Shown: positions 11,568 to 34,156 of the stretch, piece by piece
Position numbering within the stretch: the stretch's first letter is position 1
Layout: each line of letters begins with the position of its first letter
Assembly (NCBI GenBank): GCA_946623775.1
Contig: CAMORJ010000004.1
Coordinates: forward strand, 1 to 42,843
Direction: 5' to 3'
Source of the DNA: an uncultured Bacillota bacterium
GTDB taxonomy: Bacteria > Bacillota_I > Bacilli_A > RFN20 > CAG-826
Length of the DNA: 42,843 nucleotides
Made by a program: the position numbers and the translations under genes
Notes under the pieces: generated by a model
The model's database searches: none
Seen by the model: only the letters and a program-made list of their open reading frames with translations
What the model was told of the DNA's origin: nothing

Positions 11568-11573
11568 AGACAT

Positions 11574-15940: not shown

Positions 15941-16034
15941 CTTTTCTGCTTATTAGTATACGGCATGCATGTGCATATAAAAAGATGACGCTTTTCATAA
16001 CTAAGGGCTACAATTACCGGTGGAGGCGTCAGAA

Positions 16035-17393
16035 ATGGAAAACAAAAGATTGGGCGCAAAGCTTTGGATTGCCATTATTTTGATCGGCATCGCAGGCCAA
16101 TTGGCGTGGGCCATTGAGAATCAATATATCAATCTATGGGTTTATTCTCAGACGGGGGATGCGAAATACATCACTTGGATGACCACCGCTTCTTCCATCG
16201 TTGCCACGGTCACCACGTTCTTCATGGGCGCGCTGTCCGACAAGCTTGGAAAACGCAAACTATTCATATCGCTCGGCTATACCGTTTGGGGCGTCATGGT
16301 TGCCTTATTCGGCGTCATGTCCTTCACGAATTTGCTCCCGCTTTCAGGAGGAGATGCCGTCATGGCATTGCTGATGGTCGGATTGATGAACACCATCATC
16401 GACTGTTTGATGACGTTCTTCGGATCGACTTCCAACGATGCTGCGTTCAACGCGTTCGTTACTGACCAGACCAACGAAAAGAATCGACCCCTTGTCGAAA
16501 GCATCATTTCCGTCATGCCTTTGATCGCCATGGCGCTGATGTTTGTTATCGGCGGAGCATTAGGGCTTCCTGGCGCGCTAGCCGAAGGCGAAGCGCAATC
16601 GGAATTCGCTGCTAGAATTGCGCAGCCTTGGTTCATTTTCTTCTTAATCGTCGGTGTCTTCACCACCGCAGTAGGCGTTATATGCTTCTTCCTCTTGCCA
16701 AAAGACACCATTCAGCCAAGCAGAGGCGAAAAGTATATCAAGAAGCTCGTCATTGGCTTCCTCCCAAAAACCATCAAGGAGAACAAAGGATTCTACATCA
16801 CCTTGCTTTGCTTCTTGTTCTTCAACATCGGCGTCGATTCCTTCATGCCCTACTATTTGGTTTATTTCCAAAGCACCTTGGGCATCGTCGAAGGAGATTT
16901 CTTCCTCGCCATGGCATTCATATTGGGCCTATCCTCCGCAATTGTCGTCGTGATCGGGTTCTTCTTGGAACGCATCGGCAAAATGAAGATGCTTTTCCCT
17001 GCCATCATTTTGATGTCCGCCGGCGCAATGTCATTCTTCTTCAGCGGTGACAACATGGTTCCCGCCATCATTTCGGGAATTCTTCTAATGACGGGATATT
17101 TAGTAGGGACCGCCGCCCTTGGCGCAGAGCTTCGTGACCAAACTCCGAAAAACGATGTCGGAGCCACCCAAGGCGTGCGTATGGTGTTCTGCGTCTTGCT
17201 GCCAATGGTTATCGGAAGCAATCTATCCAACGCCGTTTTCCAGTCGCAGTATATAAACGAATTCGGCCAAACCGCCGCCGCTCCGGATAAATGGATGTTC
17301 ATCGTCACCGCTTCCGCCGCGCTATTGGCGCTTGTTCCCGCGGTTGTACTTGCTTTATATAAGAAAAAGCATCCTGCGAATCAGGATGCATAA
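16035..17393 (+). CDS. MFS transporter (GPH/SLC45-like)
   Basis: About 12 TM segments, GALSDKLGKRK loop motif; GGTGGAGG Shine-Dalgarno upstream of ATG 16035. Confidence 0.87.
   Translation: MENKRLGAKLWIAIILIGIAGQLAWAIENQYINLWVYSQTGDAKYITWMTTASSIVATVTTFFMGALSDKLGKRKLFISLGYTVWGVMVALFGVMSFTNLLPLSGGDAVMALLMVGLMNTIIDCLMTFFGSTSNDAAFNAFVTDQTNEKNRPLVESIISVMPLIAMALMFVIGGALGLPGALAEGEAQSEFAARIAQPWFIFFLIVGVFTTAVGVICFFLLPKDTIQPSRGEKYIKKLVIGFLPKTIKENKGFYITLLCFLFFNIGVDSFMPYYLVYFQSTLGIVEGDFFLAMAFILGLSSAIVVVIGFFLERIGKMKMLFPAIILMSAGAMSFFFSGDNMVPAIISGILLMTGYLVGTAALGAELRDQTPKNDVGATQGVRMVFCVLLPMVIGSNLSNAVFQSQYINEFGQTAAAPDKWMFIVTASAALLALVPAVVLALYKKKHPANQDA
17364..17389 (-). terminator. Intrinsic terminator for the minus-strand lipoprotein gene, embedded in the MFS gene 3' coding end
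   Basis: Perfect 8-bp stem GCATCCTG-CGAAT-CAGGATGC; on the minus strand followed by TTTTT. Spans both convergent stop regions. Confidence 0.75.
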
Positions 17394-19045
17394 GCGGTAA
17401 TGCTTTCGAACCCCGCGTTCCAGTTTGCCGCGAAGTCGATTTCACCAGCGGTCTTTTTCTGATTGAATTCCGCCTGCGTCATGTCCAAATAAAGGGAAGT
17501 CATATTCGCATTGCCTTCGCAAATGTTCGAACCGACTTTCAGCAAAGAGGCTGGGAGTCTTAGTTCTTGCAGGCTCAAGCACCTGCGGAATGCATGGAAT
17601 TCGATATCGACGAGCTGAGTGCAATTGGTGAGGTCCAAGGAAGTCACGCGGAAAGCCATCATGGCGTTTGCGTATACCGCTTTGAGAGTGGTCGGCAGCT
17701 CAACCGAGGTGATTCGTTCGTATTCCGACTCGCCATCGAGATCAAAGTCCACGAGGGAAACGATCGGATAACGGGAGTCAAAAACACCCGACCCAACGAA
17801 ATCGGCGGCCGAGAGGGCGATGCTGCCGTCAACATCGAAATCTTCGAGGCCGTAACCTTTGTATTTGGAATCGTAACGATAGGAGAAACTGTAGTTCCTT
17901 CCGCCTTTGGTTCCGCTGACACTCTTTGTTTTGCTCACGGTTCCGGCATAAAGGGTGACATCTTCGGTGATGGAACTTAAATCGTATGGCTCGCCACTGC
18001 ATCCCGAATTATCAAACCAATCGCCGGTTGCAACCGTGTCGGCGGGCAACCCAGGGACCGTCACCGGCTCAATGGCTTGACCAAAAGCGACGGAATGCTC
18101 GGCCAAAACTGTATCTTGATATTTGAATGTAACCGTCAATGGCTGAGATTTGAATGTGGGAGTCAACGTGCAATCGTATCGGATGTGTTTCGGATCAACC
18201 GCCTTGCCGTTTAACGGACCAGCGGTATAGGTGCCTTCGAAACGATCAAAAACCATGGTCTCACCCGCCCCTGTAACGTAATTCGCGGGAATATAGGTGA
18301 CCTCGGCGTCGTATTCGACGGTTTCATCGGCGTGCCCATCAGTGAAGGAGACAGTAAACGAGTTGTTGGTTCCATCATCCCAATGCGCTTCGAATTTGAC
18401 ATCGCTGACTATCGAATAGTCGCCAGTCTCGGCAAAAGACAATTCTTCCGTAGCACCATCGACGGTGACGTCATATCCAAGAAGGGCATATGTCTTGTAA
18501 TAAGGAGGGTTCACATAGGCGACGTGCTCATAGTCAAAAGGGGTTGCCGGATCGTTCGTCGCATCAATAATAGTGGACCCGTGTATCAGCTTTCCTTCAA
18601 AAAGGGAGACTCCTTGACTTAGGACTTTGACGTTGTAATAGTTGTCGAGCCAATTGAATTTTGCAAACACGCTGCAGGACTCGGTGATTTCGTTCAAATC
18701 GACAAGAGTGTTGTCCGATTTATATCCGATCCATCCATCATATTCGGCATGCTTCCCGACGCGTTCATCTTGTCGCGTGGTCTTATAATCAATGGGATTG
18801 CCGGATCCGTCTTTTTCAACGTTAAGGAGCTTTGCGGCTTTTAAATCGGATTCCTTGCGGACGTATGCATGCCCCAAGTAGGTCGCAGAGCCCTCGACTG
18901 GGTGTTCGTAATCAATCCCTTCGTAGTCGCTGAAAAACTTGACCTCGTAATAATCGTCGCCGAGGCCCCCCGCTGACATGTCGCATCCCGTCAAAGCCAA
19001 AACGGCAAGGATAGGCACAAAAAATAAGCGTTTGGTTTTTCCCAT
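17381..19045 (-). CDS. Lipoprotein with C-terminal leucine-rich-repeat (BspA-like) segment
   Basis: Lipobox VLALTGCD; C-term ITSVELPTTLKAVYANAMMAFRVTSLDLTNCTQLVDIEFHAFRRCLSLQELRLPASLLKVGSNIC resembles LRR_5/BspA repeats; central beta-rich modules. Confidence 0.82.
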   Translation of the reverse strand: MGKTKRLFFVPILAVLALTGCDMSAGGLGDDYYEVKFFSDYEGIDYEHPVEGSATYLGHAYVRKESDLKAAKLLNVEKDGSGNPIDYKTTRQDERVGKHAEYDGWIGYKSDNTLVDLNEITESCSVFAKFNWLDNYYNVKVLSQGVSLFEGKLIHGSTIIDATNDPATPFDYEHVAYVNPPYYKTYALLGYDVTVDGATEELSFAETGDYSIVSDVKFEAHWDDGTNNSFTVSFTDGHADETVEYDAEVTYIPANYVTGAGETMVFDRFEGTYTAGPLNGKAVDPKHIRYDCTLTPTFKSQPLTVTFKYQDTVLAEHSVAFGQAIEPVTVPGLPADTVATGDWFDNSGCSGEPYDLSSITEDVTLYAGTVSKTKSVSGTKGGRNYSFSYRYDSKYKGYGLEDFDVDGSIALSAADFVGSGVFDSRYPIVSLVDFDLDGESEYERITSVELPTTLKAVYANAMMAFRVTSLDLTNCTQLVDIEFHAFRRCLSLQELRLPASLLKVGSNICEGNANMTSLYLDMTQAEFNQKKTAGEIDFAANWNAGFESITAYAS

Positions 19046-19051
19046 GCGTAT

Positions 19052-19057
19052 ATTATG
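19052..19057 (-). promoter_or_regulatory. -10-like hexamer CATAAT, 6 nt before lipoprotein ATG 19045
   Basis: Reverse complement CATAAT-ATACGC-ATG. Confidence 0.55.
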
Positions 19058-19216
19058 CGTGAAAAAGCGGCATTGCGAAAGTGCAAAACATTGGCGCTTA
19101 ACGCGTCCGAAAACGGTCCTGCAACAAAAACTCTTCCGTTTTTTTGAGATTTCGGCTATTCTCTTTGTTGCTCATTGCCATAGGCAAGGGTATATTAGTC
19201 GCTGGTAGGTTTTATT

Positions 19217-19684
19217 ATGAACAAGAAAATGAATCTGATTTTGGGGATTGGCAGCGCCATCATGGCACTCGTCGCGATCTTCGTTATGTTCTCCACCGGT
19301 TTCGGTGCTGACAGGGAATTGCAGTCTCCTCGTGGCAATGTCTTTACCATCATGTTTGGCAGCTCGACCATGAATTACAACGCGGTTCCAGTATTGATCG
19401 TGGGCTTTGTCCTTCTCTGCATTGCCGTTCTCGCCGCGTTGGTCGCTGGATTCCTTCCTGGAAAATCCGGTTCTCTTGGCTTCGTCGTCGTTGCAGTCCT
19501 CTTAATTGCCGCCGCTACGATGTTTGCTTTTGCCCCCGCCGCTTACAAAGCAGCGAACGCTTCAATAATCTCTTCGAACGCCGAAGAAATCACCCTTGGT
19601 CCGGGATGCATCCTCACGATGGTCTTCGGATATCTTGGCGGCGCGCTTTCCCTCTATGGCGCCTACACCAACTTCAAAGCCTAA
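19217..19684 (+). CDS. Small multi-TM membrane protein, uncharacterised
   Basis: 155 aa ORF with four hydrophobic segments; followed by a strong terminator. Confidence 0.8.
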   Translation: MNKKMNLILGIGSAIMALVAIFVMFSTGFGADRELQSPRGNVFTIMFGSSTMNYNAVPVLIVGFVLLCIAVLAALVAGFLPGKSGSLGFVVVAVLLIAAATMFAFAPAAYKAANASIISSNAEEITLGPGCILTMVFGYLGGALSLYGAYTNFKA

Positions 19685-19700
19685 GCAAAATCAATATTGA

Positions 19701-19733
19701 AAACAGCGAACCAGATGGCTCGCTGTTTTTTTG
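19701..19733 (+). terminator. Intrinsic terminator
   Basis: AACAGCGA...TCGCTGTT followed by TTTTTT. Confidence 0.85.
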
Positions 19734-19740
19734 TTTTGGT

Positions 19741-20223
19741 TTATAAGCGATCCTCTAGATATCCTGGAACTTGGTCATAAGGCATCGATAACGCCAACGC
19801 GAGTTCTCCGTAAACGATGGGTTCGGCCCTCGAGACGAACAATCCATCCATGGAATTCAAATGACCATCACGGACCTTACGTTGCTTGGCACCAGCAATG
19901 AGAGGCGCCATCTTGCTGATATCGCCGCTTGCCAAAGCGCTTTCGTATGCAAGCTTGCGAGCTTTCGAATCGACAATATAAAGATCGGTTTTGAAAGAAG
20001 GAAGATTCTTCACAACTTCTTCTGCAGCCTTTCTAGTCAAAGGCATGCGAAGGGAAGAGGGATTGCTTACAGGTACCCTCACGATGTTCGTTTTGCTATC
20101 GCCATAAAGAGGAGACAAAACGTAATATAAATCGCCATTATCATCCCCGGAAAGTGGGGCGATATCTTTTACATAGCAGACTCCGCAACGTAAATGAAAT
20201 ACATAGGAATCTTTAGGAAACAT
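19741..20223 (-). CDS. CarD-like/CdnL-family RNA polymerase-binding regulator
   Basis: MFPKDSYVFHLRCGVCYVKDIAPL...YYVLSPLYGDSKTNIVRVPVSNPSSLRMPLTRKAAEEVV fits the CarD/TRCF-RID N-terminus, followed by a helical C-terminal half. Confidence 0.8.
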   Translation of the reverse strand: MFPKDSYVFHLRCGVCYVKDIAPLSGDDNGDLYYVLSPLYGDSKTNIVRVPVSNPSSLRMPLTRKAAEEVVKNLPSFKTDLYIVDSKARKLAYESALASGDISKMAPLIAGAKQRKVRDGHLNSMDGLFVSRAEPIVYGELALALSMPYDQVPGYLEDRL

Positions 20224-20484
20224 AAAACGATTTACCCCCTTCCTAGGAAAACAACATACGGTTTCCTTTCTTTATTATATCAAAAAAACTGGGTTGTGGT
20301 TTCAAAAAATAACAAAAACTTTTATTGATCCTTTTTCCTATTTATGGACATTATGCTTCAAAAAGCATCGATAAACAAAGAAGAATTCATGAATCATTGT
20401 ACGGTTTTTAGATAAATATTTTTGTCACTGAAAAATAATGAAAATTTCTGAAAAAGTTTCCAAACCATTTCTATTAAGTGCAAT

Positions 20485-20508
20485 GAAAAAAGGACGCAAG
20501 CGTCCTTT
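20485..20508 (-). terminator. Intrinsic terminator downstream of hypB
   Basis: AAAGGACGC-AAG-CGTCCTTT hairpin; minus strand continues with T-run. Confidence 0.8.
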
Positions 20509-20531
20509 GTGATTATTGAAAGCGTTTATCT

Positions 20532-21197
20532 TCAAAAAGCTTGAACTGTTTTCAAAATGAATTCGGCCAGGTCATCCATCCCCTCACCGGTTTTTGCAGA
20601 AATCGGGAAGAAAATTGCATGTGGATTAAGTTTGTTTATTCTCTGTTTAGCTAAATCAACATCAAAATCGAAGACGACTTTGGTGTCCATCTTGGTGAAA
20701 ACAAACGCATCGCCCTTCCTAAACATCAATGGATATTTAAGAGGCTTATCGTCACCCTCTGGAACCGAAAGGATCACCAAGTTCATCGCCGCACCTGTAT
20801 CGAATTCTGCAGGGCAAACAAGATTTCCTATATTCTCAAGGATCAATAGATCCAAATTATCCTGGCCAATCGCGTGAACGGCTTCCGATGTCATTTTTGC
20901 GTCTAAATGGCATTCTCCAGAAGTATTGATTTGAATTGTACGAACGCCGGTCAAATCCTGAACGGTGTGCGCATCCACATCCGCATCCATATCGGCTTCG
21001 ATAACTCCAATGCGAAGTTTATCCTTGAGCATATTGATGAGCTTGACGAGCATGGTCGTTTTTCCTGCTCCAGGCGAAGACATAAGATTGATCAAATAGA
21101 CTTTGTTCGATTTGAGTTCGTTCCTAAGCGCTTCTGCCCTTGAATCATTGTTGGCCAATACGCTCTGTTTGACTTTGATTACACGCATGTCACCCAT
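20532..21197 (-). CDS. hypB: Hydrogenase/urease-type nickel incorporation GTPase HypB
   Basis: NLMSSPGAGKTTML P-loop, VIEADMDADVDAHTVQ, INTSGECHLDAKM, LENIGNLVCPAEFDTGA, FTKMDTK are HypB signatures. GGGAGGTCC Shine-Dalgarno. Confidence 0.93.
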   Translation of the reverse strand: MGDMRVIKVKQSVLANNDSRAEALRNELKSNKVYLINLMSSPGAGKTTMLVKLINMLKDKLRIGVIEADMDADVDAHTVQDLTGVRTIQINTSGECHLDAKMTSEAVHAIGQDNLDLLILENIGNLVCPAEFDTGAAMNLVILSVPEGDDKPLKYPLMFRKGDAFVFTKMDTKVVFDFDVDLAKQRINKLNPHAIFFPISAKTGEGMDDLAEFILKTVQAF

Positions 21198-21486
21198 GTT
21201 TGGACCTCCCGCGTTTATATATATTAGAGGTTCTGAAAACTAAGTCCAACAATCTCTTCAGCCTGCCCTTTCAAAATTGAGCGACCTAGTTTTTAGTACT
21301 AAATCATTTTTAATGTTTTTCATAAATATTTAAGTCTAATAACTTTAGAATATCATTCAAATTCAAATGCATGGGGTCAATATTTTGCTCTCTACGAATC
21401 GTAGAACTGCATTTCTTTAATATTGAAACATCGGTTTAGAGTGACTCTACACACGCCCGCATATTAAATAGACGCGGTAAAAAACC

Positions 21487-22470
21487 ATGGCAGAAAAAGT
21501 AAAGCCTGTTGAAGGCATCAGAAAAAAGAAAGCACTGCGCTATGTCCTGTCGATCGCCGGGACAATAGCAGTCGGAATCGGCGCGGGGTTGCTTGCAGGG
21601 AACTTCCTCAAGCCACCGATAGAAAACGCCACGGCCAATGCTTCGGATTACGCGCTGAGCGAATCCTACTATCAGGAAGCCGACACTGTGTTGAAGAAGG
21701 CAATTCAAAGCGGAACGCCCCTAAACGAGGCAATGACTCCCGACCAATTGCTCAATATAGCATTCCGGAATTTCGGGAAGTTGGATATGACCATGTCAAT
21801 CGGAATCGGCGTCTCGAGTTCCATCGGCGGAATCAAGCAAGAGATTCAATCAGCCGCATATCACGTCGGAGATGTCTATTTCGAGGAATCGAATTCCCTG
21901 GGCGTCGTGAACATCCATGACAGGATGTATCAAGAAGGCGACACAACAACGACTTACTGGGGAGAGAAAGCGGATTACGCGAACCATCCTAAAGAAGTGA
22001 TGAGCAACGCGGATTACGCGAAGAAGATGGGAAGGAAAGTCTCTGAGGGTCTCGTCTATATCGTTTCTCCGAAGACAATCTCCTACGAAACCGACCTCTC
22101 AGGCGACGGAGTGAGCAAAATAGCCAAAACCGAACAGGGTTACCAAGTCGATATAGAAATGGCCACAACCCTATCGCCGTCTGGAAAGACCTTGATGCCG
22201 GGCATCACGAACTACCAAAAGCAAATGAAGAGCATTTCTGGATTGAAGACATACCCGCCATTCCAGTATTGCCACCTCAAGCTCAACGTTGATAAAGAAG
22301 GGAACCTCATCTCCTTCCTGACACACGAAAAATACGATGCGAATATGCCGATTGGCCCAACCGCAATCGAGGCGACCTGCGAAGGAACCCTCTTCACGCA
22401 ATACTTCAGCGGCGGCAAGTACGAAATTCCATCGCTAACAACCCAAATCGATTACGACTCCTACAAATAA
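21487..22470 (+). CDS. Uncharacterised N-terminally membrane-anchored extracytoplasmic protein
   Basis: 327 aa; single N-terminal hydrophobic segment YVLSIAGTIAVGIGAGLLAGNFL; 15 nt upstream of the next gene. Confidence 0.82.
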   Translation: MAEKVKPVEGIRKKKALRYVLSIAGTIAVGIGAGLLAGNFLKPPIENATANASDYALSESYYQEADTVLKKAIQSGTPLNEAMTPDQLLNIAFRNFGKLDMTMSIGIGVSSSIGGIKQEIQSAAYHVGDVYFEESNSLGVVNIHDRMYQEGDTTTTYWGEKADYANHPKEVMSNADYAKKMGRKVSEGLVYIVSPKTISYETDLSGDGVSKIAKTEQGYQVDIEMATTLSPSGKTLMPGITNYQKQMKSISGLKTYPPFQYCHLKLNVDKEGNLISFLTHEKYDANMPIGPTAIEATCEGTLFTQYFSGGKYEIPSLTTQIDYDSYK

Positions 22471-22485
22471 AACGAGGTAACAACC

Positions 22486-25400
22486 ATGATTAAGAAAAAA
22501 CTACTAGTTAATGGACTGATCTTCACATTGGTTTTCGGCGTCGCGGCCGGAGGAACCTATTTCTTGGTCCCGCAGCGCATCATCGAAGGGGAAGGCGGAA
22601 ACGAAATCGGCGATGTCGAGCCCGACGATCCAGCTATCGAAACGGGCATAGAGAGGCTAATGAACTCGACCGTCGCTTCTTTGACAAGCGGAATCGAGGT
22701 GGATTTCAGCAAACTCCGCGTCGATATCGCAGGCAAAGACAACAACCCGCTCTATACGAACCACCTTATCGCGGATGACGCAAACCTAATGTTCTCCATG
22801 GGCGAGCTTTCCGTTCACGGCATCAATCTATCTTTGGAAGCCCCTGTCGCTTACCAGGTCGGGGCCGTGACCAAAAACCGTGGGCTCGACCTCAAATTGA
22901 TCCAAGATAATGTCTACTTTGATATTTATAACGCGGATAACGTGGACAAATGGGATTTTAAATACCACGTCTCCACCGCTACCATCGACGTCCCTGACGC
23001 AGGAGTCGATGAGCATACAGGCGGCACGTTCATCTATGAAATGGGCGAACTCTCCTGGGTCCTCGAAGACATCTTGGACGTTTTGACCGAAGGCGGAGTC
23101 CAAATCAGCCTGCCGTCTCTTTCTTCCTTGATCAAAGGCGATGACGCCGCCGAGCAGGAAGAAAGCCAAGAGGAGCAAGAGGAACAAGAAGAAAAATCCG
23201 GAATCGATCTCGATGCGATCATGGCGTCCATGGATTCCATGCAGGAATACCACCTCGACAACAACGCTTGCCACTACTTCGTTTGGAATCTCGAGATCAG
23301 CGATGAATTGACTTTGCCGCTTGGATTGAAGGCCAACGGGAATTACAACCTTTCCGGAATTGATTTCCCTGCCAAAAACGTCTCGGAGGATTCAACTTCC
23401 TACGCCGCTTTGACGCAAGGCGAATTCCAGTTCCCCAATTCCACCATCTCCATCTCGGTGTCCGCTGATGTTAAGACTTCCAATTCCGAGCTTGTCTGGT
23501 CCATCCCCGACGATGCCGCTTCCTACCGCGATCTCTCCGATTCTCTTGGCCTATTCAAAGGCATCGCCGCTTTGGCAGCCACTCCGAAATTCGGAATCGA
23601 CGGCAACATCTCCATCAACCATCACGTCGAAGGCGAGGATGCGACTGAGACGACCCTTGCCCAAGACGAAATCGATGAGACGGCGAATATCGCATTGAAT
23701 GCCGACGTCGACTTCTCTTCCTATAAGCTCAACGCTCTCTCCGTCGGCTTGGATATCTCCACAGCCGAGGATGAGAACACCGTATACTCCACCGGATTAA
23801 GCGCAAAGATGTTCGGCGACGAGGAAGGCAACGAAGCCTACGTCAACGTCGGAAACGTTTTGAAAGCGCACGCAACCAAATCCACCGTCGACGCCTTGAT
23901 GGGCAAAATCAAAGGCAGCAACGAGAACGACCAGGAAGGCCAAGCCCAAGAGCAAGTCGCCGAAGAGTCCACCTCCGCGCTTCTCGACACCATCAAGAAA
24001 ATCGAATCCATCAACAACATCCTTGATTCCGATATGGTCAAGGGCATCAAGGAAGGCCATTACGAATGGGCCCTCGACTTGCTTGACGTCTTCCGCAACG
24101 ACGACAATCTCATCGAAGTCGTCCTATCCTTCGCGCCGCTTGGCATCGTCGGCAAAGCATCTGTGACCCTCGATGGCCGCGAGAACAAATCGCTTTTGTC
24201 CATCTCCATCGAAGATCTGACCTTTGCTTCTTTGACCGTCAACGCGGATATTGTCCTCACAGACTTCGCCGACGTCACGGTGACCGAAGAAGAGCAATCC
24301 GAATACATCACCATGACCCATTTGGTTGGCACCGTCGACCAAATCGAAGCCTTCACCAACTCCAAGCAAGGCAAACTCGCCATCAACGCTTCCGTCTTGA
24401 AGGAAGGCACCTCCGATGTCGGCGGGCATCTCAAAGGCGTCGAGCTCTCTGGCTCCGCTGCCTTCGATTTGAATGTCAAACAAGCGACCGCGAGCATCAA
24501 GCTCGAAGAATACAACACCTCGTGGCGTCAAGACCACACCGTCAACCTGGATTTGACGTCCACCAACGACGGCGACCTCGACAAAGCCCTGTTCTCTTAT
24601 TCTTCATATAACGAGATCATCGAATCCGACGAGAACAACGACAACCTCTACAACCGCACCAACCCCACCGGCATTGCCAAGGAAGGCTATCAGAATACCG
24701 ATGGCGTCAAAGGCTATCTCTCCTTAACTTCCATCGGCGAGCTCATTGAAAGCCTCACATCTTTCTTCGGCGAGGCCGATCACCGCTTCTCCCGCGTGAT
24801 GAAGTCTCTCCAGAGCGAAACCGAAGTCAGCCTCATGTCCAAATTGACCTCCGGCAATTATTTCGCCATCATCGAGCTTCTCGAAGACGGCATCCTCAAA
24901 GAGGTCAACAAAGCCGGCGACGTCACGACCTTCGTCGTCAAAGGCTCGACATTCGGAATGAATAGCGACATCAGCATCGCGATCGAATTCAATCCCAACG
25001 CCACCGACGAAGAAGGAAACGTGACGGAAGGTGGCATCAAAAACCTCACCATCTCCCTGGCCCTCGGCAAAGAAGAAGGCAAGATGACCAACGTCGAAAT
25101 CACCCTTGGCAGCATCGAAAGCGAATTGGATGAAAACGATAAGCTCTCTTCCTTCGAGCTTGCCGACTTCGAGGCCGAAACCTTGGAATCCGCAGGATTC
25201 GTCGACTACACCTCCATCTTCGATCTCGTCGACTATGCCGTCGGCACCACGATGATCGGCGCCCCCGTCAACGGCGGCGTCTCCACCTTCGCCATTGAGG
25301 CTACGGTCTCGCTTGTCCTCGGCGAATATGTCTTCGACGCTTTGAAAGTCAAAGCCGGCGTTTATGTCCATGGCGCGAAAGTCAAAGCCTACCTCGAACT

Positions 25401-26181
25401 CAATGATCTCCCCGTCGTAAAAGGAATCAACGGACCCGAAGACAGCCATTACTTCCGCTCCTTCGAATATGAAGGAATGAGGGATGTGGCGATGTATTAC
25501 TACGCGGATGGCTTCAATCCCAAGGGATATTACCTCCTCACCCGCGACTCCACCTATGGTCGCCTCGCCCACGTCAAGGATTCCCTCTTCCTCACCGGCG
25601 CAGAATTCAATGAACACCCCGCCGAATATCTCTTGCAGTACCTTATCGGGGTCAATTCCGAATTCTTCAAGGCGGAAGAAGAGCCCGAACAGCCGCAGCA
25701 GCAAACCGAAGAGGCATCTTCCTCCATCATCAAGCACGCAATGCATGCGGAAGACTTCCTCAAGAGCTATCTCTATTCCTTCAATAACGGCAACCCGTCC
25801 TGGGACATCAATATCGACCTCGGCGCAATGCTAGGCTTATCCTTCCTCGGCGTTGCGAACCTCCATCTCGGCGGCACCAGAGTCGCATATGAGAAAGAAG
25901 GCGAAACCGCCTACTTCAAGGGCTTGAATAACCTTTCAGTCGATTTGGGAATCACGCTTGCAGGCAAGCTCAAAGTCTGCTCCGCCTCCGTCGACGCATC
26001 CATCACCAACCTCAGCGATGGCGTCTACACCGATGGCTGGGCATTCTATGAGAATACTTTCCAGACCTACTTCTCAAGCGCCGTCCGCGCCAACGGAATC
26101 GGTGACTACGGTTACCTCAACTACAACACTTCCAACATGGGAGAACTCGGCTACAACCTTTATTGGACCGCCGGCAATTAA
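22486..26181 (+). CDS. Large uncharacterised N-terminally anchored extracytoplasmic protein, paralog A
   Basis: 1231 aa; N-term hydrophobic segment LLVNGLIFTLVFGVAAGGTYFLV; GAGGT Shine-Dalgarno; beta-rich repetitive ectodomain, acidic/Gln-rich linkers; colinear similarity to 26255..29692. Confidence 0.88.
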   Translation: MIKKKLLVNGLIFTLVFGVAAGGTYFLVPQRIIEGEGGNEIGDVEPDDPAIETGIERLMNSTVASLTSGIEVDFSKLRVDIAGKDNNPLYTNHLIADDANLMFSMGELSVHGINLSLEAPVAYQVGAVTKNRGLDLKLIQDNVYFDIYNADNVDKWDFKYHVSTATIDVPDAGVDEHTGGTFIYEMGELSWVLEDILDVLTEGGVQISLPSLSSLIKGDDAAEQEESQEEQEEQEEKSGIDLDAIMASMDSMQEYHLDNNACHYFVWNLEISDELTLPLGLKANGNYNLSGIDFPAKNVSEDSTSYAALTQGEFQFPNSTISISVSADVKTSNSELVWSIPDDAASYRDLSDSLGLFKGIAALAATPKFGIDGNISINHHVEGEDATETTLAQDEIDETANIALNADVDFSSYKLNALSVGLDISTAEDENTVYSTGLSAKMFGDEEGNEAYVNVGNVLKAHATKSTVDALMGKIKGSNENDQEGQAQEQVAEESTSALLDTIKKIESINNILDSDMVKGIKEGHYEWALDLLDVFRNDDNLIEVVLSFAPLGIVGKASVTLDGRENKSLLSISIEDLTFASLTVNADIVLTDFADVTVTEEEQSEYITMTHLVGTVDQIEAFTNSKQGKLAINASVLKEGTSDVGGHLKGVELSGSAAFDLNVKQATASIKLEEYNTSWRQDHTVNLDLTSTNDGDLDKALFSYSSYNEIIESDENNDNLYNRTNPTGIAKEGYQNTDGVKGYLSLTSIGELIESLTSFFGEADHRFSRVMKSLQSETEVSLMSKLTSGNYFAIIELLEDGILKEVNKAGDVTTFVVKGSTFGMNSDISIAIEFNPNATDEEGNVTEGGIKNLTISLALGKEEGKMTNVEITLGSIESELDENDKLSSFELADFEAETLESAGFVDYTSIFDLVDYAVGTTMIGAPVNGGVSTFAIEATVSLVLGEYVFDALKVKAGVYVHGAKVKAYLELNDLPVVKGINGPEDSHYFRSFEYEGMRDVAMYYYADGFNPKGYYLLTRDSTYGRLAHVKDSLFLTGAEFNEHPAEYLLQYLIGVNSEFFKAEEEPEQPQQQTEEASSSIIKHAMHAEDFLKSYLYSFNNGNPSWDINIDLGAMLGLSFLGVANLHLGGTRVAYEKEGETAYFKGLNNLSVDLGITLAGKLKVCSASVDASITNLSDGVYTDGWAFYENTFQTYFSSAVRANGIGDYGYLNYNTSNMGELGYNLYWTAGN

Positions 26182-26190
26182 GCTCTATTT

Positions 26191-26229
26191 CCCCGCAGAA
26201 GCCTTTTAAGATATTGGGTTTCTGCGGGG
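26191..26229 (+). other. Intercistronic hairpin (stability element or partial terminator)
   Basis: CCCCGCAGAA ... TTCTGCGGGG, 10-bp perfect stem; only a weak T tract (CTTTCC) follows. Confidence 0.65.
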
Positions 26230-26254
26230 CTTTCCAAGCGCACGCAAAAAGAAA

Positions 26255-29200
26255 ATGGGATTTTTCAGCAAAGCAAAAACGGTATGGATCTCCGCCTTGG
26301 CGGGATTTTCCGTTTTTCTTTTCGCGTGCGCGCAAATCAAGCCTACGCTCGCGTTGGTAGATCCTCTGTCCGATGAATCCGATTCCGTTTCGTATTCTTT
26401 CGGTCAAGAAGCGATCGCCAAGCAAATCAAGAGCGCTTTTAGAGAAGGCATATCGGCTTCGGCGTCTGGCCATCTGGCTTTTACCGTATCCGGCAAAGAA
26501 GCAACCAACACCGTCGAATTGAACGATGCTGCGGTGAACCTGCGCATCGATGGCTTATCTCTAACGGGCATCATGCTGTCTCTGCATGCGCCCATTAGCT
26601 ACGGAAACAACCATTTCGATTTCGATTTGAGCCTAACCAGGAATCAAAGCAATGAGCCCTATCTCTATTTCTCGGTTGACTCGCAGGAAAACGCTGACCT
26701 CAATCACGTCCGCTATAAAGTCAGCCTGGAAAGGTACTTCCCCTATGGAACCTCTTCCGACGAGGCAATCGACGATGAGACCGGAGGGATCCTTTCCTTC
26801 TCATACGGCCAATTGGATTGGCTCATTCACGACATCGCTGAAATCTTGACCGGCGAAGGCAGCCCCATCTCCGCCCCAAGCGAGGAAGAGCCAAGCGAAA
26901 TCTCCACCTCCGACATTTTGGATTCCCTCAACGAGATTGCGCAGACAACCGTTGATGCCGCCCCCTATTTTGTTTGGAATCTCCCAATAGGCGAAAAGAC
27001 CATACCTTTGGGCTTTGCTAGCGATGCGTCCTACAAACTCACCCGCATCGATTTCCCATCCAAAACAAGCGTGGGGGATTACAAGATTTCGGACGCCTTA
27101 TCCATTGCGCTTTCTCTCGAGCTTCAGGCCAGCGATGCCCCGCTTTCTTTTGGCCCGAGATATCACGACGGCGCTTATAGGGAGCTGCAAAACAGCGCAT
27201 CGCTTTTCGAAAAAGTCGCAACATTGGTCACCGAACCTCAATTCGGCCTCACATTCGACGGAAGCCTCCGCAATTATGTCGCGCCGCAGACCAATCCAGA
27301 CGACCCAACCATCCTCGATCAGGAAGAAATCGATGAGCTATTGAATCTTCGCCTCAACGCGAACGTCGATTATTCATCATACGTCCTCAACGCTTTTGAT
27401 GGAGACATCGAACTTGGCTACGTCGAAGACAGCGTCGTCGCCAAAACCCAAGAAGCCTCTTTCTACTTCGACGCAGGCGAAGAAGGAATGGGGGCCGAGG
27501 CATTTTTCGAGGTAAACCACATCCTCATGGCCAAAGCCACCAAAACCGTTTTGGACGCCTTCATCGCCGACTTGGTCGAAGCGTTTGGGAAAATCGACAT
27601 CATCGAATTGCTGTTCGGCAGTTTGAAGGACGCGATAGAGAGCCTTCTGTCATCCGCGGCGGTCGAAGGCATTAAGGAAGGCACCTACGATGAGGTCGTC
27701 CCGCTTTTGGAATCCATCCAAACGGAAGACAATCTGATTTCGCTGACATTAAATGGCGAGGCCATGTCCCTTTCCGGGCAAATCAAAGTGACCTTGGACG
27801 GAAACGAAAACAATTCGCTCGTATCCGTGGAGTTCACCGACTTCTGCATCGACTCTTTCTACATCAACGGCACCCTGTCCATCGCGGATTATGAGGCACC
27901 GGCCATCGAGAATCCCGAGGATTATCACGAAATGACCCATCTGCAAAGCGTGGAAGAGCAAGTCGTGGGCATCCTCCAAAACGAATCCGCTTCTTTCGAA
28001 TTATCGGGGCATCTATATAAACTCGGGCAAAATGAGAAAGACGTCACAGGGCAGCCGCAGGGCTTCGATTTCTCCGGCACCGCTCACATCGACGTGGAGA
28101 ATAAGCGCGGAGCAGGCGAATTGACTTTCACCGATCGCAAAGACGAATACCGCAACGACCATCACCTCAAAATCAATGTCCAAGGGCCCGAAGGCGAATC
28201 CGAGGAGGACAACTACACCGCCTCCTATACTTCCGGCGTAAACAACATGCTCGTCACCTATGACTCCCGCAACGACTCGCATCCAAGCGGCGAGAACCGC
28301 ACGGATCCGAAATCGAGCCCCCTCGCGGCCAGATTCTCCATACACTCCCTCAACGACATAATCGATCTCGTCAAAGGGTTGCTGGACAGCGAAGATGACC
28401 GCTTCAAGAGGCTCTTCTCCTCCTTCTCCCAAGAACAGGCGACCGATTTGATTTCGGCGATTTCCAGCAAGCAGTACTTCAGTTTGTTCAAGTACGACCT
28501 CATCGAGGAAGCGAACCTTGGGGCGAATAAGTCGACCATCAAAATCCCCGGCTCCTTATTGGGTCAGACAAAGCCCTTGCAGATCGAGATGGAATATTAC
28601 CCCGAGGATTCCCTTAACAAAGGCATCAAAACGCTGAACGTCCTCGCTTATTTGGATGCGGAAGACGATGATGGCAATGCAGTGGAGCGCGAGCTTTACA
28701 TCAGCATTTCCTCTATCGCCACCCCCGTCGATCCCAGCGGTTTGGAAATCCTTTCCGCGGATTACGCGTCCAATCCATCCTCCTATATGGATTTCTCCAG
28801 CCTGTCGCCGCTTTTGGATTATCTCTACGGCACCGCAACCTTAGGCGAGACTGAGACAAGCAAAGCGTCAACCTATCAGTTGGAGGGAACCATCGCCGCA
28901 AGCCTCGGCTCATTGGATTTGAAGAAAATCGAAGTCAAGTTCTACGCTTACGTCAACGGAGCCACCACGAAATTGCACGCCCAGCTGAGCAAAATCCCGG
29001 TTATCTCAGGATTCACCGACAGCGGTTCTCTAGGCATCGGAGCGATCGGAAACGTCTTGCTCAACCAAAGGCAAACGGACATCTATTATTACGCCGACGG
29101 AGCCAACAAAGACGGCACCATCCTCATGATGAGGAAGGATGTGTATAGCAAAGTGTTCTGGAAGGATACCTATCTTTCCTATGCCTGCATGAGCGGACGC

Positions 29201-29692
29201 GAAATCCGCTCGGACATCGCTGGCTGGCTTGTTTCCTATGCGCTTGGCATCAACATGAATGCCTTCACCTCCGACAAAGACAAAGCAAAGAAATCTCCCC
29301 ACGCGGAAGACATCATTGAGAGCTTCTCATTCGCTTCCGGACCGAAATGGAGCGCGACCATCAATTTAGGCGAGGCGCTTGACACAACCGCGCTTGGGAC
29401 AACCTCTTTGACGATTTCCGGCTTGACCTGCAAGAAAGGAACGAATACTTGGAAAACGCTATCGTCCCTCACTGCTTCAGTCCCTGTCCAACTGCTTGGG
29501 CTTGATGTTCTAAGCCTTAACGTCAGCCTATCCTTGAAGAACGTATCGGCCACAAATTACAGCGACGGCTGGACGAATAACGCTTCCAGCTATAATTCCA
29601 ATTTCAACGATGGCAAATCGTCTTATGCCCGTAACCCGCTATATAACGGCAGTAGCGTCGCGGCCAACTATTATAAGGACAACAAAATTTGA
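26255..29692 (+). CDS. Large uncharacterised extracytoplasmic protein, paralog B
   Basis: 1145 aa; N-term hydrophobic segment WISALAGFSVFLFACAQ; colinear with paralog A (for example GIKEGTYDEVVPLLES..DNLI..VTLDGNENNSLVS versus GIKEGHYEWALDLLDV..DNLI..VTLDGRENKSLLS). Confidence 0.88.
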   Translation: MGFFSKAKTVWISALAGFSVFLFACAQIKPTLALVDPLSDESDSVSYSFGQEAIAKQIKSAFREGISASASGHLAFTVSGKEATNTVELNDAAVNLRIDGLSLTGIMLSLHAPISYGNNHFDFDLSLTRNQSNEPYLYFSVDSQENADLNHVRYKVSLERYFPYGTSSDEAIDDETGGILSFSYGQLDWLIHDIAEILTGEGSPISAPSEEEPSEISTSDILDSLNEIAQTTVDAAPYFVWNLPIGEKTIPLGFASDASYKLTRIDFPSKTSVGDYKISDALSIALSLELQASDAPLSFGPRYHDGAYRELQNSASLFEKVATLVTEPQFGLTFDGSLRNYVAPQTNPDDPTILDQEEIDELLNLRLNANVDYSSYVLNAFDGDIELGYVEDSVVAKTQEASFYFDAGEEGMGAEAFFEVNHILMAKATKTVLDAFIADLVEAFGKIDIIELLFGSLKDAIESLLSSAAVEGIKEGTYDEVVPLLESIQTEDNLISLTLNGEAMSLSGQIKVTLDGNENNSLVSVEFTDFCIDSFYINGTLSIADYEAPAIENPEDYHEMTHLQSVEEQVVGILQNESASFELSGHLYKLGQNEKDVTGQPQGFDFSGTAHIDVENKRGAGELTFTDRKDEYRNDHHLKINVQGPEGESEEDNYTASYTSGVNNMLVTYDSRNDSHPSGENRTDPKSSPLAARFSIHSLNDIIDLVKGLLDSEDDRFKRLFSSFSQEQATDLISAISSKQYFSLFKYDLIEEANLGANKSTIKIPGSLLGQTKPLQIEMEYYPEDSLNKGIKTLNVLAYLDAEDDDGNAVERELYISISSIATPVDPSGLEILSADYASNPSSYMDFSSLSPLLDYLYGTATLGETETSKASTYQLEGTIAASLGSLDLKKIEVKFYAYVNGATTKLHAQLSKIPVISGFTDSGSLGIGAIGNVLLNQRQTDIYYYADGANKDGTILMMRKDVYSKVFWKDTYLSYACMSGREIRSDIAGWLVSYALGINMNAFTSDKDKAKKSPHAEDIIESFSFASGPKWSATINLGEALDTTALGTTSLTISGLTCKKGTNTWKTLSSLTASVPVQLLGLDVLSLNVSLSLKNVSATNYSDGWTNNASSYNSNFNDGKSSYARNPLYNGSSVAANYYKDNKI

Positions 29693-29717
29693 ACTTGATG
29701 TTCCCAAGGTCTAAAAT
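29689..29717 (+). promoter_or_regulatory. Sigma70-type promoter for the membrane HTH gene: TTGAAC, 17-nt spacer, TAAAAT
   Basis: -35 at 29689-29694 overlaps the upstream TGA stop; -10 at 29712-29717; ATG 9 nt further downstream. Confidence 0.6.
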
Positions 29718-29726
29718 AGCAACGCA

Positions 29727-30350
29727 ATGGAAAACCTGGCTACGATAGTAGGCAAAAACATCGCCTCCCTCCGCAAGGCAAGGGGGCTTACCCAGCAAGA
29801 ACTCGCGCAGGAAATCAATTACAGCGATAAATCGATTTCGAAATGGGAGCTCGGCTATGCCGTCCCATCTTTGGATATCTTGATGGACATTGCTGCATTT
29901 TTTAATGTCACCATCGATTATCTGACGCAAGAGCACTCCCCGGAATCGATCGATGAAGCGGCCGCAACCAGCGAGAAAATGAAAATCGACCCGAACAGGC
30001 CGATCATCATCGCCCTGACCATGATGGTCATCATATTGGTGGGCCTATCGATTTTCCTGGCTGCGGTTTTTATGAGAAAAGACCCAAACGCCCCACTGCC
30101 ATGGTCGATCTTTTTTTGGATCATTCCTGTGTGCTGCTTCTTGGCCGCTCTGGAGGTCAAACACTTCTACCACAACAAGCTGTGGTTCGTCTCCCTTCTG
30201 AGCGCATTCGTATGGTCGTTGCTTCTATGCTTCTGCTTCCAGTATGCATTCTATAACCAAGTCAGGGAGAACATCTGGTTCATCTTGACCGTTGGCATAC
30301 CTGTGCAAGTCATCTTCATCCTGTTCCAAAAGATACAGCCAAAACAATAA
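29727..30350 (+). CDS. XRE-family HTH regulator with C-terminal membrane segments
   Basis: IASLRKARGLTQQELAQEINYSDKSISKWELGYAVPSLDILMDIAAFFNVTIDYL, then several hydrophobic segments. Confidence 0.92.
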   Translation: MENLATIVGKNIASLRKARGLTQQELAQEINYSDKSISKWELGYAVPSLDILMDIAAFFNVTIDYLTQEHSPESIDEAAATSEKMKIDPNRPIIIALTMMVIILVGLSIFLAAVFMRKDPNAPLPWSIFFWIIPVCCFLAALEVKHFYHNKLWFVSLLSAFVWSLLLCFCFQYAFYNQVRENIWFILTVGIPVQVIFILFQKIQPKQ

Positions 30351-30355
30351 ACAAA

Positions 30356-30375
30356 GAAGGGGCACGGCCCCTTTT
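30356..30375 (+). terminator. Intrinsic terminator after the HTH gene
   Basis: AAGGGGC-ACG-GCCCCTT-TTT. Confidence 0.75.
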
Positions 30376-30394
30376 TCAATCCGATTCTTTTGTT

Positions 30395-31066
30395 TCAATT
30401 AGCGGCGAATTCAATTGAGATGACGTACATGGCGTATTTACTGAGATTCGCCAATTTGAAATACCCTTCCATATCAAATTCGAATACACGTACCCCTTCT
30501 TTTTCGCTAACAGAAGGTGTTTTCTCGATGGTGGGATCCTCGCTTTGCCCAGCATAGAACGTTGGCACGCCGCTGAAATCATCGCCGTTGTATGCGCGGA
30601 TTTTGATGCCCATGGAGACATGGCAGGACGAGAAAGCGGATTTCGAATAGATATAGCTCTCATACTTCTTCATTTGAATGGTTCCGTCCCATTCGCCGTG
30701 ACCTGGTTGGATATAGTCGCCGAAGAAAGAAACGGTTTGCCCATCGCTTCTAGTTGCCTGGAATGGGTAATCGTTCAAATACTGGCTTTGCTGGGTGGAA
30801 ATCAATAAGTCGCTATTCAGGGTCAGCGTCCATGATTCCGCAGGCTCCTCTTTTTCCGAAGTGGAGCTAACGGCTGAGGACGTTGAAGATTCTTGCGAAA
30901 GAGTTGATGATGATTCCGAAGATGGCGCGGACGAAATGGATTCGCTAGATGCAACCGAGGAAGGCGCTTCCGTGCTGTTGCTATTGTAATCGGTGGATTT
31001 CGTTTCGCCGCATGCAACTAAGACAAACGCGGAGCCGAGCAATGCCACGAGTAATTCTTTTCTCAT
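30395..31066 (-). CDS. Ser/Glu-rich lipoprotein, uncharacterised
   Basis: MRKELLVALLGSAFVLVACGETKSTD lipobox followed by a Ser-rich linker. GGGGGT Shine-Dalgarno upstream of ATG 31066. Confidence 0.82.
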   Translation of the reverse strand: MRKELLVALLGSAFVLVACGETKSTDYNSNSTEAPSSVASSESISSAPSSESSSTLSQESSTSSAVSSTSEKEEPAESWTLTLNSDLLISTQQSQYLNDYPFQATRSDGQTVSFFGDYIQPGHGEWDGTIQMKKYESYIYSKSAFSSCHVSMGIKIRAYNGDDFSGVPTFYAGQSEDPTIEKTPSVSEKEGVRVFEFDMEGYFKLANLSKYAMYVISIEFAAN

Positions 31067-31194
31067 GAATGAATACCCCCAATAACGCATCGATTATACT
31101 CTTTTGCGAACGCGCGCGCATTTTCATGCGCATATATAGTGCAAAAAACGAAATGGGTGCTATGATTGCCCCGTGTCACGAAAGGAGACTCATT

Positions 31195-32967
31195 ATGAGT
31201 AAAACATCTTGGGACCTCTCCCCGTTCTTCAAAAGCGAAGAAGAATTCCTTGCCGCCCTTGAAGAATTTAAGAAAATCCCACCCATCATCGCCTCTTATG
31301 CCGGGCAATTATCAGACGAAGAAAAGCTGAAAGAATACTTCCGCCTGAACAAGAGGATGAACAAAGACTTGGCGCGTCTATATTATTTCGCCTCCATGCG
31401 CAGCGACCTCGATAAGAAAAACGTCGCCAATGCAAGCGATCTCAGCAAAGTGCAAATCGCCTTGCGCGATTTAGGGGAAGCCGCAAGTTTCGAAGAACCG
31501 GAACTCCTATCCCTGGGGAAAGAAAAGCTGGACGCCTTCATTGCCAAATACCCCGAATTCCAAGAGTACGCTTTCTCCATGGAAAAACTATTCCGCGGGC
31601 AAGCGCATGTTCTCACTCCAGACAAAGAGAAGCTTTTGTCGTCTTTCTCGGCCGTCGTAAGCGAATCCAGAAATCTGTATTCCGTGCTTTCCATCGCCGA
31701 TAGGAAACCCGCCAAAGCGACTTTGAGCGACGGAAGCATCGTCGATGTCAATCAAGCAAACTGGAGTTCGCTCGTCGCCAAAGCCAAATCGCCTGAAGAC
31801 CGTCAGAAGATCTTCGAAACCCTATACGCCTACTATGACGAGCACAAGACAACCTACGGGGAGATCTACAATCTTTCCATGCAATCCCAGCTCGCTTCCG
31901 TTAAGGCGCGCGGCTATAAATCCATATTGGATTTGCATCTGTTCCATAACGCGATTCCCGAGGACGTTTTCCATAATCTCGTGGAGGTCGCAAGCCAAAA
32001 CGCCGAACCCCTGCATGAATATTACGAGCTCCGCCGCAAATATTTGGGCTTAAAGAAGCATCGTTCATACGATCGTTTCATCCAACTCGCCGAGCCAAAG
32101 AAAAAATACACTTATGACGAGGCCAAAGACCTCTTCTTTGCCTCCATCGCCTCTTTCCCAGAGGACTTCCAGGCCAAAGCGCACGAAGTATTGAAAGATG
32201 GATACGTCGATGTATATCCCGCCGAAGGAAAACGCTCTGGCGCCTATTCTAACGGCGGCGATGATTTCCACCCCTATATCCTCCTCAACTTCAACGGAGA
32301 GCTTGACGACTGCTTCACGCTTGCGCACGAATCCGGTCACTCCATCCACACGCTTTATTCCGAGGAATCTCAGCCGACGCTATTGCAGGATTACACCATC
32401 TTCGTTGCGGAGATCGCCTCTACATTCAATGAGCATAATCTCTTGGACTACCTGCTTAAATCCGGGACGCTGTCCAAAGAAGACAAGATTTTCTTGCTCC
32501 AAAAGTCCATCGACGAAATCATGAGCACCTTCTACCGTCAAACTTTGTTTGGGCAGTATGAATACGAAATCTCAAAGCTCGTAGAGCAAGGCGAGCCGAT
32601 CGACTTCCAAGTCTTATCTGCCAAGATGGTGGAACTATACAAAATCTATTATGGAATCGACATCGAGGAAGAAGGGCTCAAGCCACTCGTATGGGCTTAT
32701 ATCCCCCACCTCTTCAATTCCCCCTTCTATGTATATCAATATGCGACTTCGTTCACTTCGTCTATGCTGATTTACGAAAGGGTCAAAAATGGAGAGCCCG
32801 GCGCATTTGAGCAGTATCTAAATCTGCTGCGTTCAGGCGGAAGCGATTACCCCGTGGCTCAAGTCAAAGCCGCAGGCGTCGACCTAACGACGAAAGAACC
32901 ATATCTAGCCGTTATCCGCCGCATGAAAGAGCTTGTTGCCGAATTGAAAGAGTTGCTCGAAGAATAA
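31195..32967 (+). CDS. pepF: Oligoendopeptidase F (M3 family)
   Basis: FTLAHESGHSIHTLYSEE zinc site (HExxH), PILLNFNGEL region, M3 C-terminus; AAAGGAG Shine-Dalgarno before ATG 31195 (ORF track start 31069 is too far upstream). Confidence 0.95.
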   Translation: MSKTSWDLSPFFKSEEEFLAALEEFKKIPPIIASYAGQLSDEEKLKEYFRLNKRMNKDLARLYYFASMRSDLDKKNVANASDLSKVQIALRDLGEAASFEEPELLSLGKEKLDAFIAKYPEFQEYAFSMEKLFRGQAHVLTPDKEKLLSSFSAVVSESRNLYSVLSIADRKPAKATLSDGSIVDVNQANWSSLVAKAKSPEDRQKIFETLYAYYDEHKTTYGEIYNLSMQSQLASVKARGYKSILDLHLFHNAIPEDVFHNLVEVASQNAEPLHEYYELRRKYLGLKKHRSYDRFIQLAEPKKKYTYDEAKDLFFASIASFPEDFQAKAHEVLKDGYVDVYPAEGKRSGAYSNGGDDFHPYILLNFNGELDDCFTLAHESGHSIHTLYSEESQPTLLQDYTIFVAEIASTFNEHNLLDYLLKSGTLSKEDKIFLLQKSIDEIMSTFYRQTLFGQYEYEISKLVEQGEPIDFQVLSAKMVELYKIYYGIDIEEEGLKPLVWAYIPHLFNSPFYVYQYATSFTSSMLIYERVKNGEPGAFEQYLNLLRSGGSDYPVAQVKAAGVDLTTKEPYLAVIRRMKELVAELKELLEE

Positions 32968-32970
32968 TCA

Positions 32971-33002
32971 AAAACTCGTTCCGAAGCCCGGAACGAGTTT
33001 TC
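32971..33002. terminator. Bidirectional intrinsic terminator between pepF and the convergent gene
   Basis: AAAACTCGTTCCG-AAGC-CCGGAACGAGTTTT-type hairpin. Confidence 0.85.
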
Positions 33003-33008
33003 TTATGC

Positions 33009-34025
33009 TTATTTTTCCCTTGCCTGACGCTTTTTGCCGCGTTGAATGGCTTTGGCGACTTCAGGCGAAACAGGCTCGTCTTCGCCGACGGTGATCAACG
33101 GAACTTCGACGACATTGCCCTTTGAGTCAACCGCTTTAACCGTCCTTGCGGGAGCAGGCGATGATTGCCTTCCCGCCTCAAGCGCGGCTTGTATTGCCTG
33201 CTGGTCTGCGCGCAAAGCGTCGAATTGCCCCGAGAAATATAAATAATCCAGCTCATCGCCTTTGGCACGACCATAGGAGTCGATGATATTTTCCCTCATC
33301 CTGCGGTATGTATCGGGGTCCATGGCCTGATTCATTCCCGGGACGGCGTGATCTTCGTATAGCAAGCGGACCATGGCATCGTAATCGCGATTGATCCACA
33401 TTTTGCGGAATGACTTCTTAAACGCCCTCTTTTCTTTGCCATTAAGCTTTCTCAGCATAAGGCTTCGACGAGAATAGATTGGGGAGAAGCGACCATGGAT
33501 CAACGGATCGAACCAAGAGAACATCCCTATCAACAATCCGAAACCATAGAAAGTGATTTCCGAGAACAAAATTATGAGTCGCACTATGTTGTGCACAGCG
33601 GGCGTATTATCTCCGAATATCGTAGGGAAGAAATGGAGGAAAACGTATTTAAATAGACCCGCCACCAATGCAACAGATCCGGCCAAAACAAGAAAAACCA
33701 GGAGGGGCGTGTATCCTTTTTTGCGCTTTTTCATCCATAGAACGAGGATGAAAGCGAGCAAGCCGCCAGGAACTCCCAAGATAGCCCAGCCACCAGCAAC
33801 GATGAACCTGTTGATCGTCAAGACATATACCCAGTTGTCAGTAAAAGCGACGGTCAGCTTAAATTGAGAAGCGAAGTTGATGAACGGCTGATAATACCTT
33901 GCTAAGCCATAGGAAAGGAAGGCAGCAAAGCATAGAAGGAAAACAAAAATGCCCATAACGGGGATGGCAACCCGATTTCGCGACGGCCTGCCGTCCTCGA
34001 GCAATTTCTCTGTGACCATTGCCAT
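33009..34025 (-). CDS. Uncharacterised multi-TM membrane protein
   Basis: Hydrophobic segments VAIPVMGIFVFLLCFAAFLSYGLARYY, GLLAFILVLWMKKRK, LLVFLVLAGSVALVAGLF. Start uncertain (ORF track 34070 is a TTG). Confidence 0.75.
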   Translation of the reverse strand: MAMVTEKLLEDGRPSRNRVAIPVMGIFVFLLCFAAFLSYGLARYYQPFINFASQFKLTVAFTDNWVYVLTINRFIVAGGWAILGVPGGLLAFILVLWMKKRKKGYTPLLVFLVLAGSVALVAGLFKYVFLHFFPTIFGDNTPAVHNIVRLIILFSEITFYGFGLLIGMFSWFDPLIHGRFSPIYSRRSLMLRKLNGKEKRAFKKSFRKMWINRDYDAMVRLLYEDHAVPGMNQAMDPDTYRRMRENIIDSYGRAKGDELDYLYFSGQFDALRADQQAIQAALEAGRQSSPAPARTVKAVDSKGNVVEVPLITVGEDEPVSPEVAKAIQRGKKRQAREK

Positions 34026-34156
34026 GATTGAAATACCTGGGTAAAGAAAAATTTTATTTTCCTTTAACAATCATGCAACCGATTGGGCAAAATGACAAGG
34101 GTTTTAGGCTTTCTCAAGACGGCAATAAGAAGTAAAATTAGAGACGAGGTAATCAA

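Follow-up and report, generated by a model that had tools for sequence, protein, structure and literature searches.

A conserved gene pair encoding a predicted LolA-type half-barrel and a giant repeat protein in uncultured Bacilli of the order RFN20

Related systems and the locus under study

The LolA fold consists of an 11-stranded sheet, which is divided into shelf I (strands 1-6) and shelf II (strands 7-11), and most, not all, of the characterized proteins with this fold bind lipids or lipoproteins (PMC6363788). The LolA-like lipoprotein GerS of C. difficile activates the amidase CwlD (PMC8496864), and P116 of Mycoplasma pneumoniae extracts host lipids (PMC10023570). Subject of this work is a cluster of three genes, designated A, B and C, on a DNA stretch of 42,843 nucleotides (the window: positions 1 to 42,843 of contig CAMORJ010000004.1, assembly GCA_946623775.1) from an uncultured Bacillota bacterium of the order RFN20, family CAG-826. 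The genes are separated by 15 bp (A-B) and 73 bp (B-C), and the products of B and C are referred to as giants. An initial annotation had described three tandem open reading frames (ORFs) of 327, 1231 and 1145 amino acids (aa), whose coordinates were confirmed exactly, and had assigned to them anchored, beta-rich ectodomains without a recognised domain. This description agrees with the N-terminal hydrophobic segments, of which A and B each have a single one, and with a mostly beta structural model of C. Moreover, none of the three proteins matched a family in Pfam, NCBIfam or PHROGs in single-sequence and profile searches, and B found no match in a sequence search of the PDB. Profile searches of Pfam, NCBIfam and the PDB with A and 20 family members remained without match, including the curated LolA and LppX models, and family-level profile searches of the giants in Pfam and the PDB gave nothing credible either.

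Compared with described systems, the locus combines known and deviating features. As in the LolA/LprG/LppX superfamily (CATH 2.50.20), A is anchored and predicted to form an 11-stranded half-barrel of six plus five strands, an order which the repeats of the giants also show in a model of middling confidence; however, A and the giants are not matched by the Pfam LolA and LppX models, known members comprise one unit whereas the giants comprise four in tandem, and the host of the module described here is monoderm and largely wall-less. P116 resembles the giants in a proposed role in lipid capture, a large anchored ectodomain and a wall-less, lipid-scavenging bacterium (PMC10023570), but its fold combines amphipathic helices, arranged in four pairs, with a single five-stranded sheet, whereas the giants are mostly beta in the model and do not show the helical-finger fold with its huge hydrophobic cavity; no sequence relation of P116 to the giants was found in PDB sequence searches. 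GerS is likewise a LolA-like anchored lipoprotein of a Firmicute (PMC8496864), but consists of a single domain and has a sporulation amidase as partner. AsmA, TamB and YhdP are also large, N-terminally anchored, beta-rich proteins and proposed lipid movers; they form continuous grooves spanning to the outer membrane, while the giants are composed of discrete repeats with internal helices. A bridge of the AsmA/TamB type was rejected, with no Pfam match to AsmA or TamB and no Omp85 in the genome of the window (84% complete). Of the groove-type folds suggested in the initial annotation, the LolA/LppX type fits the predicted fold of A in Foldseek searches and plausibly that of the giants' repeats, while the AsmA/TamB type found no support.

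Conservation of A with one giant across the order

The conserved unit is A together with one giant, usually accompanied by a membrane-embedded helix-turn-helix (HTH) regulator, and not the pair of B and C. For its distribution 281 genomes of the order from 56 genera and 31 genomes of the window's own genus were sampled. A was found in 28 of the 31 congeners, and the genus conserves the cluster of all three genes; by profile, A was detected in 187 genomes of the order (29 genera) and the giant in 155 genomes (24 genera). Wherever a strong A was present (134 genomes), a giant followed directly downstream on the same strand in 113 cases, 92 of them within 50 bp, and some of the exceptions are contig breaks. 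Additionally, an A domain followed by giant-type repeats is found within one polypeptide of 989 aa in locus L072 (446-3415) and, outside the order, in proteins of 1710 aa with several significant repeats (L085, 2813-7945) and 2477 aa (L086, 6262-13695). These fusions speak for a joint function of A and the repeats.

The initial annotation suggested a heteromeric pair of giants with A as a third component; an obligate pair of this kind is not supported. In most genera a single-copy giant is encoded next to A, and the usual third member is a protein with an HTH_3 domain and C-terminal transmembrane helices, which is part of the cluster in 33 of the 41 loci inspected; no other gene was linked to the module as consistently in these loci. 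The position of the regulator gene varies: in the window it follows C, in several congeners it lies between B and C, and in most other genera it is found upstream of A in divergent orientation. In a tree of the giants, the first giants of the genus form one clade (support 1.0) and the second giants another (0.99), each of which also holds the corresponding copy of one genome of genus g50. The single giants found in other genera fall outside both clades, and a further g50 genome has duplicated its giant independently. From this tree it follows that B and C trace back to one old duplication, placed at the base of the genus or close to it, and do not represent the basic design.

The end-to-end alignment of the giants noted initially is real, as BLASTP aligned aa 45-1196 of B with aa 41-1117 of C, almost the full length of both (380 bits, E 1e-116, 28% identity). 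The duplicates differ in their anchoring. The hydrophobic segment of C ends in a lipobox-like cysteine (LFAC in the window), so that C is probably a lipoprotein. With a simple pattern this cysteine was detected in 13 of 19 C orthologs, one subclade having lost it, whereas the transmembrane segment of the B orthologs lacks such a cysteine in 16 of 17 cases. A is a lipoprotein in three more distant relatives (L073, L074, L076).

Predicted fold, internal repeats and neighbouring genes

A is predicted to fold as a half-barrel of the LolA/LprG type. The AlphaFold2 (AF2) model, calculated with 20 homologs as input, reached a pLDDT of 88 and shows an N-terminal helix as membrane anchor, followed by a helix, six strands, a helix, two strands, a helix and three strands, in accordance with the helix-capped 11-stranded half-barrel of strands 1-6 and 7-11 that defines LolA and LprG. 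The top PDB match in Foldseek was LprG of M. tuberculosis (E 3.4e-5, probability 1.00), including its form bound to phosphatidylinositol mannoside (PIM). Further matches were LolA3, RseB, EPDR1, the LolA-family protein NE2245, LolB and the microsomal triglyceride transfer protein (MTP).

At the sequence level, each giant is composed of four tandem homologous repeats of about 215-270 aa apiece, a structure missed in the initial annotation. Three comparisons establish this. Firstly, a 49-sequence profile of the giants was split at the DSSP boundaries of the C model and its parts were compared with hhalign, which related R2 to R3 (probability 98.7, E 2e-16), R1 to R2 (E 1.5e-6), R1 to R4 (E 9e-6) and R2 to R4 (E 1.8e-5); R3-R4 and R1-R3 were not detected directly. 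Secondly, an unbiased sliding-window profile comparison gave E-values down to 1e-13 at offsets of 241-266 aa for C and 2e-15 at offsets of 205-224 aa for a 948-aa relative, against best values of 5e-3 and 1.4e-2, respectively, in reversed-profile controls. Thirdly, a repeat Hidden Markov Model (HMM) recognised four repeats each in B and C, both of which belong to its training set, and also in four giants outside the training set (L097, L098).

The AF2 model of C (pLDDT 76, pTM 0.57) shows in DSSP a recurring pattern of a helix, six strands, helices, two strands, a short helix and three strands. In repeats 2-4 of this model the 6+5 strand order corresponds to the division into shelf I and shelf II of LolA. 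From this strand order, which A is also predicted to have, we tentatively infer that the giant repeats are LolA-type half-barrels. The features of the locus are listed in Table 1.

Table 1. Features of the gene cluster in the window (i-E, independent E-value)
Feature	Position	Strand	Basis
Gene A, 327 aa: predicted LolA/LprG-type half-barrel behind an N-terminal transmembrane anchor	21487..22470	+	ORF, AF2, Foldseek
A, predicted membrane anchor (aa ~17-41)	21535..21609	+	Hydrophobic segment; helix 11-41 in AF2 model
A, predicted LolA-like domain (aa 85-308): groups of 6, 2 and 3 strands, each preceded by a helix	21739..22410	+	DSSP on AF2 model
Gene B, 1231 aa: transmembrane-anchored giant, four tandem repeats	22486..26181	+	ORF, BLASTP, repeat HMM
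B repeat 1 (aa 54-333)	22645..23484	+	Repeat HMM, i-E 1.5e-28
B repeat 2 (aa 343-596)	23512..24273	+	Repeat HMM, i-E 1.2e-38
B repeat 3 (aa 602-878)	24289..25119	+	Repeat HMM, i-E 2e-30
B repeat 4 (aa 901-1177)	25186..26016	+	Repeat HMM, i-E 8.8e-23
Gene C, 1145 aa: B paralog, probable lipoprotein (LFAC), four tandem repeats	26255..29692	+	ORF, BLASTP, repeat HMM
C repeat 1 (aa 51-296)	26405..27142	+	hhalign, repeat HMM
C repeat 2 (aa 304-550)	27164..27904	+	hhalign R2 vs R3, repeat HMM
C repeat 3 (aa 552-820)	27908..28714	+	hhalign, sliding windows, repeat HMM
C repeat 4 (aa 839-1100), the most divergent of the four	28769..29554	+	hhalign, repeat HMM
Regulator: N-terminal Cro/C1-type HTH (HTH_3) and C-terminal transmembrane helices	29727..30350	+	Pfam HTH_3, E 2.7e-16

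Several genes related to lipid metabolism occur near the module in a lineage-specific manner. In genera g7 and g49 the giant is followed by a gene for a PAP2-family protein, genes for DegV (FakB-type), FakA and PlsX are found near the giant in g49, and nine loci encode a patatin-like phospholipase no more than a few genes away from the module. Within the genus, synteny extends over 16020-34070, with genes for a major facilitator superfamily (MFS) transporter, a CarD-like protein and a CobW/HypB-like GTPase upstream of the module and for an M3 peptidase and a membrane protein downstream. The transporter gene at 16020 (compare LprG-Rv1410) was set aside; its conservation near the module, in 13 loci, is confined to this genus. 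Further away in the window, a 2308-aa ORF (4647-11573, - strand) with hydrophobic N-terminal segments encodes another giant membrane or surface protein, for which neither a Pfam match nor significant similarity to the repeats or the A domain was found, and a predicted lipoprotein of 554 aa (17381-19045, - strand) gave a borderline match to leucine-rich repeats of the BspA type. The fusion proteins of L072, L085 and L086, which come from other families, measure 989-2477 aa and carry long arrays of giant-type repeats, so the number of repeats varies. Proteins of about 500 aa with a C-terminal A-like domain (L091, 2660-4156; L095, 6108-7676; L096, 5389-6951) represent a second architecture and may form a separate A-domain family.

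Host gene content and possible function

A penicillin-binding transpeptidase was found in only three of 57 sampled genomes of the window's family and in 31 of the 281 genomes of the order. Matches to beta-ketoacyl synthase were obtained in 17 order genomes, only about seven of them strong, and homologs of the fatty-acid kinase FakA are present in the genome of the window. The host family appears to be largely wall-less and unable to make its own fatty acids. The RFN20 families CAG-288 and CAG-826 have been predicted to be peptidoglycan-deficient (PMC10868615), and the similarity of the host to these families is a guess from its gene content. The module is rarer in genomes with penicillin-binding proteins (PBPs; 5/31 vs 124/250) and absent from all seven genomes with a strong ketoacyl synthase; the Fisher tests for these associations (p = 4e-4 for PBPs, 0.017 for fatty-acid synthesis) ignore kinship and are treated as weak. 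PBPs were kept in genus g6 and a few others, strong ketoacyl synthases in g51 and g53, and this distribution offers a good test set for independent losses.

In our tentative interpretation, which we rate nearly as probable as its opposite, A, B and C form an envelope-anchored surface apparatus with which a wall-less fatty-acid auxotroph would capture or relay lipids; P116 of Mycoplasma would be an unrelated analogue. In its favour are the predicted fold of A, the tandem repeats of the giants, the linkage and the fusions of A with giant-type repeats, the gene content of the hosts, the lipid-related neighbours in some relatives and the precedent of P116. The membrane-proximal A and an outward-reaching chain of open half-barrels, possibly joined in a complex, would capture hydrophobic molecules outside the cell, with fatty acids, phospholipids or glycolipids as candidate cargo. 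Captured lipids would be relayed into, or along, the outer leaflet and might feed fatty-acid incorporation based on FakA/FakB, while the HTH-membrane protein would adjust expression to the state of the membrane. B with its transmembrane anchor and C with its putative lipid anchor would be duplicated versions of the same element with different anchoring. Somewhat doubtful, in our view, is the bolder proposal that the module represents a previously undescribed lipid-acquisition machine and a widespread counterpart of P116, with a LolA-like receiver by the membrane, rods of at least four tandem half-barrels passing lipids down and a membrane-sensing repressor.

Several observations weigh against lipid capture. 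The TM-scores between A and LprG are modest (0.31 normalised by the query, 0.44 by LprG), and the model of the giant is of mid-range confidence only. When the profile of A was compared with those of the giants or of their repeats, no similarity signal was obtained, so that the strand order is the one line of evidence for a common fold, and sequence homology between A and the repeats is not claimed. Whole-chain Foldseek searches with the giant in the PDB and in viral libraries yielded no credible match, the long alignments to LptD and others being spurious (best-match TM about 0.1 or less). No PAP2, patatin or Fak gene is located beside the cluster in the window. Genus g6 has PBPs and also the module, and many genomes with neither PBPs nor ketoacyl synthase are also without the module. 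Moreover, the LolA fold is also employed in protein-protein contacts, as in the activation of CwlD by GerS and the regulation of sigma-E by RseB.

Among the alternatives, an unlikely one that still deserves consideration is a coat, adhesin or stalk, in which the repeat rods would act as the structural surface layer of a largely wall-less cell or as spacers for adhesive faces and the half-barrels would merely be robust beta modules. Anchored repeat proteins that are large, vary in length (948-1352 aa, in the fusions up to 2477 aa), diverge fast (28% identity between B and C) and are exposed on cells without peptidoglycan enzymes would suit this function; the strict association with a small protein of the LolA type and, in most cases, with a regulator of its own, the single giant per genome in most cases and the binding of lipids or lipoproteins by the Foldseek matches of A would not. 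Rather improbable is a role mainly as a stress or lipid sensor of the RseB/MucB kind, in which A, perhaps with the giants, would bind lipids or lipoproteins that are mislocalised and pass the signal on via the HTH protein in the membrane. RseB and MucB are two-domain partners of a transmembrane anti-sigma factor, and RseB regulates sigma-E. Both are among the structural matches, RseB among those of A, and the frequent linkage of the regulator, often divergent from A, is in line with sensing, but the linked membrane protein is of the HTH type and not an anti-sigma factor, its extracytoplasmic loops are short and without an obvious binding domain, autoregulation accounts equally well for the linkage, and rods of about 1000 aa are unnecessary for a sensor. 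That the half-barrels cradle extracytoplasmic proteins instead of lipids, as partners or enzyme-activating scaffolds, has a precedent in the activation of CwlD by GerS (PMC8496864) but is highly improbable, as the module shows no consistent linkage to any enzyme and these genomes are mostly without transpeptidases.

If the lipid-capture interpretation is true, a family present in over half of the sampled genomes of the order and devoid of a curated domain model would be their lipid-capture system and an example of LolA-type half-barrels strung together in tandem. The gene pair of A and a giant, together with its natural fusions, offers a clear target for structural and lipid-binding tests. The question matters for how uncultured, largely wall-less and apparently fatty-acid-auxotrophic Bacilli obtain their membrane lipids.

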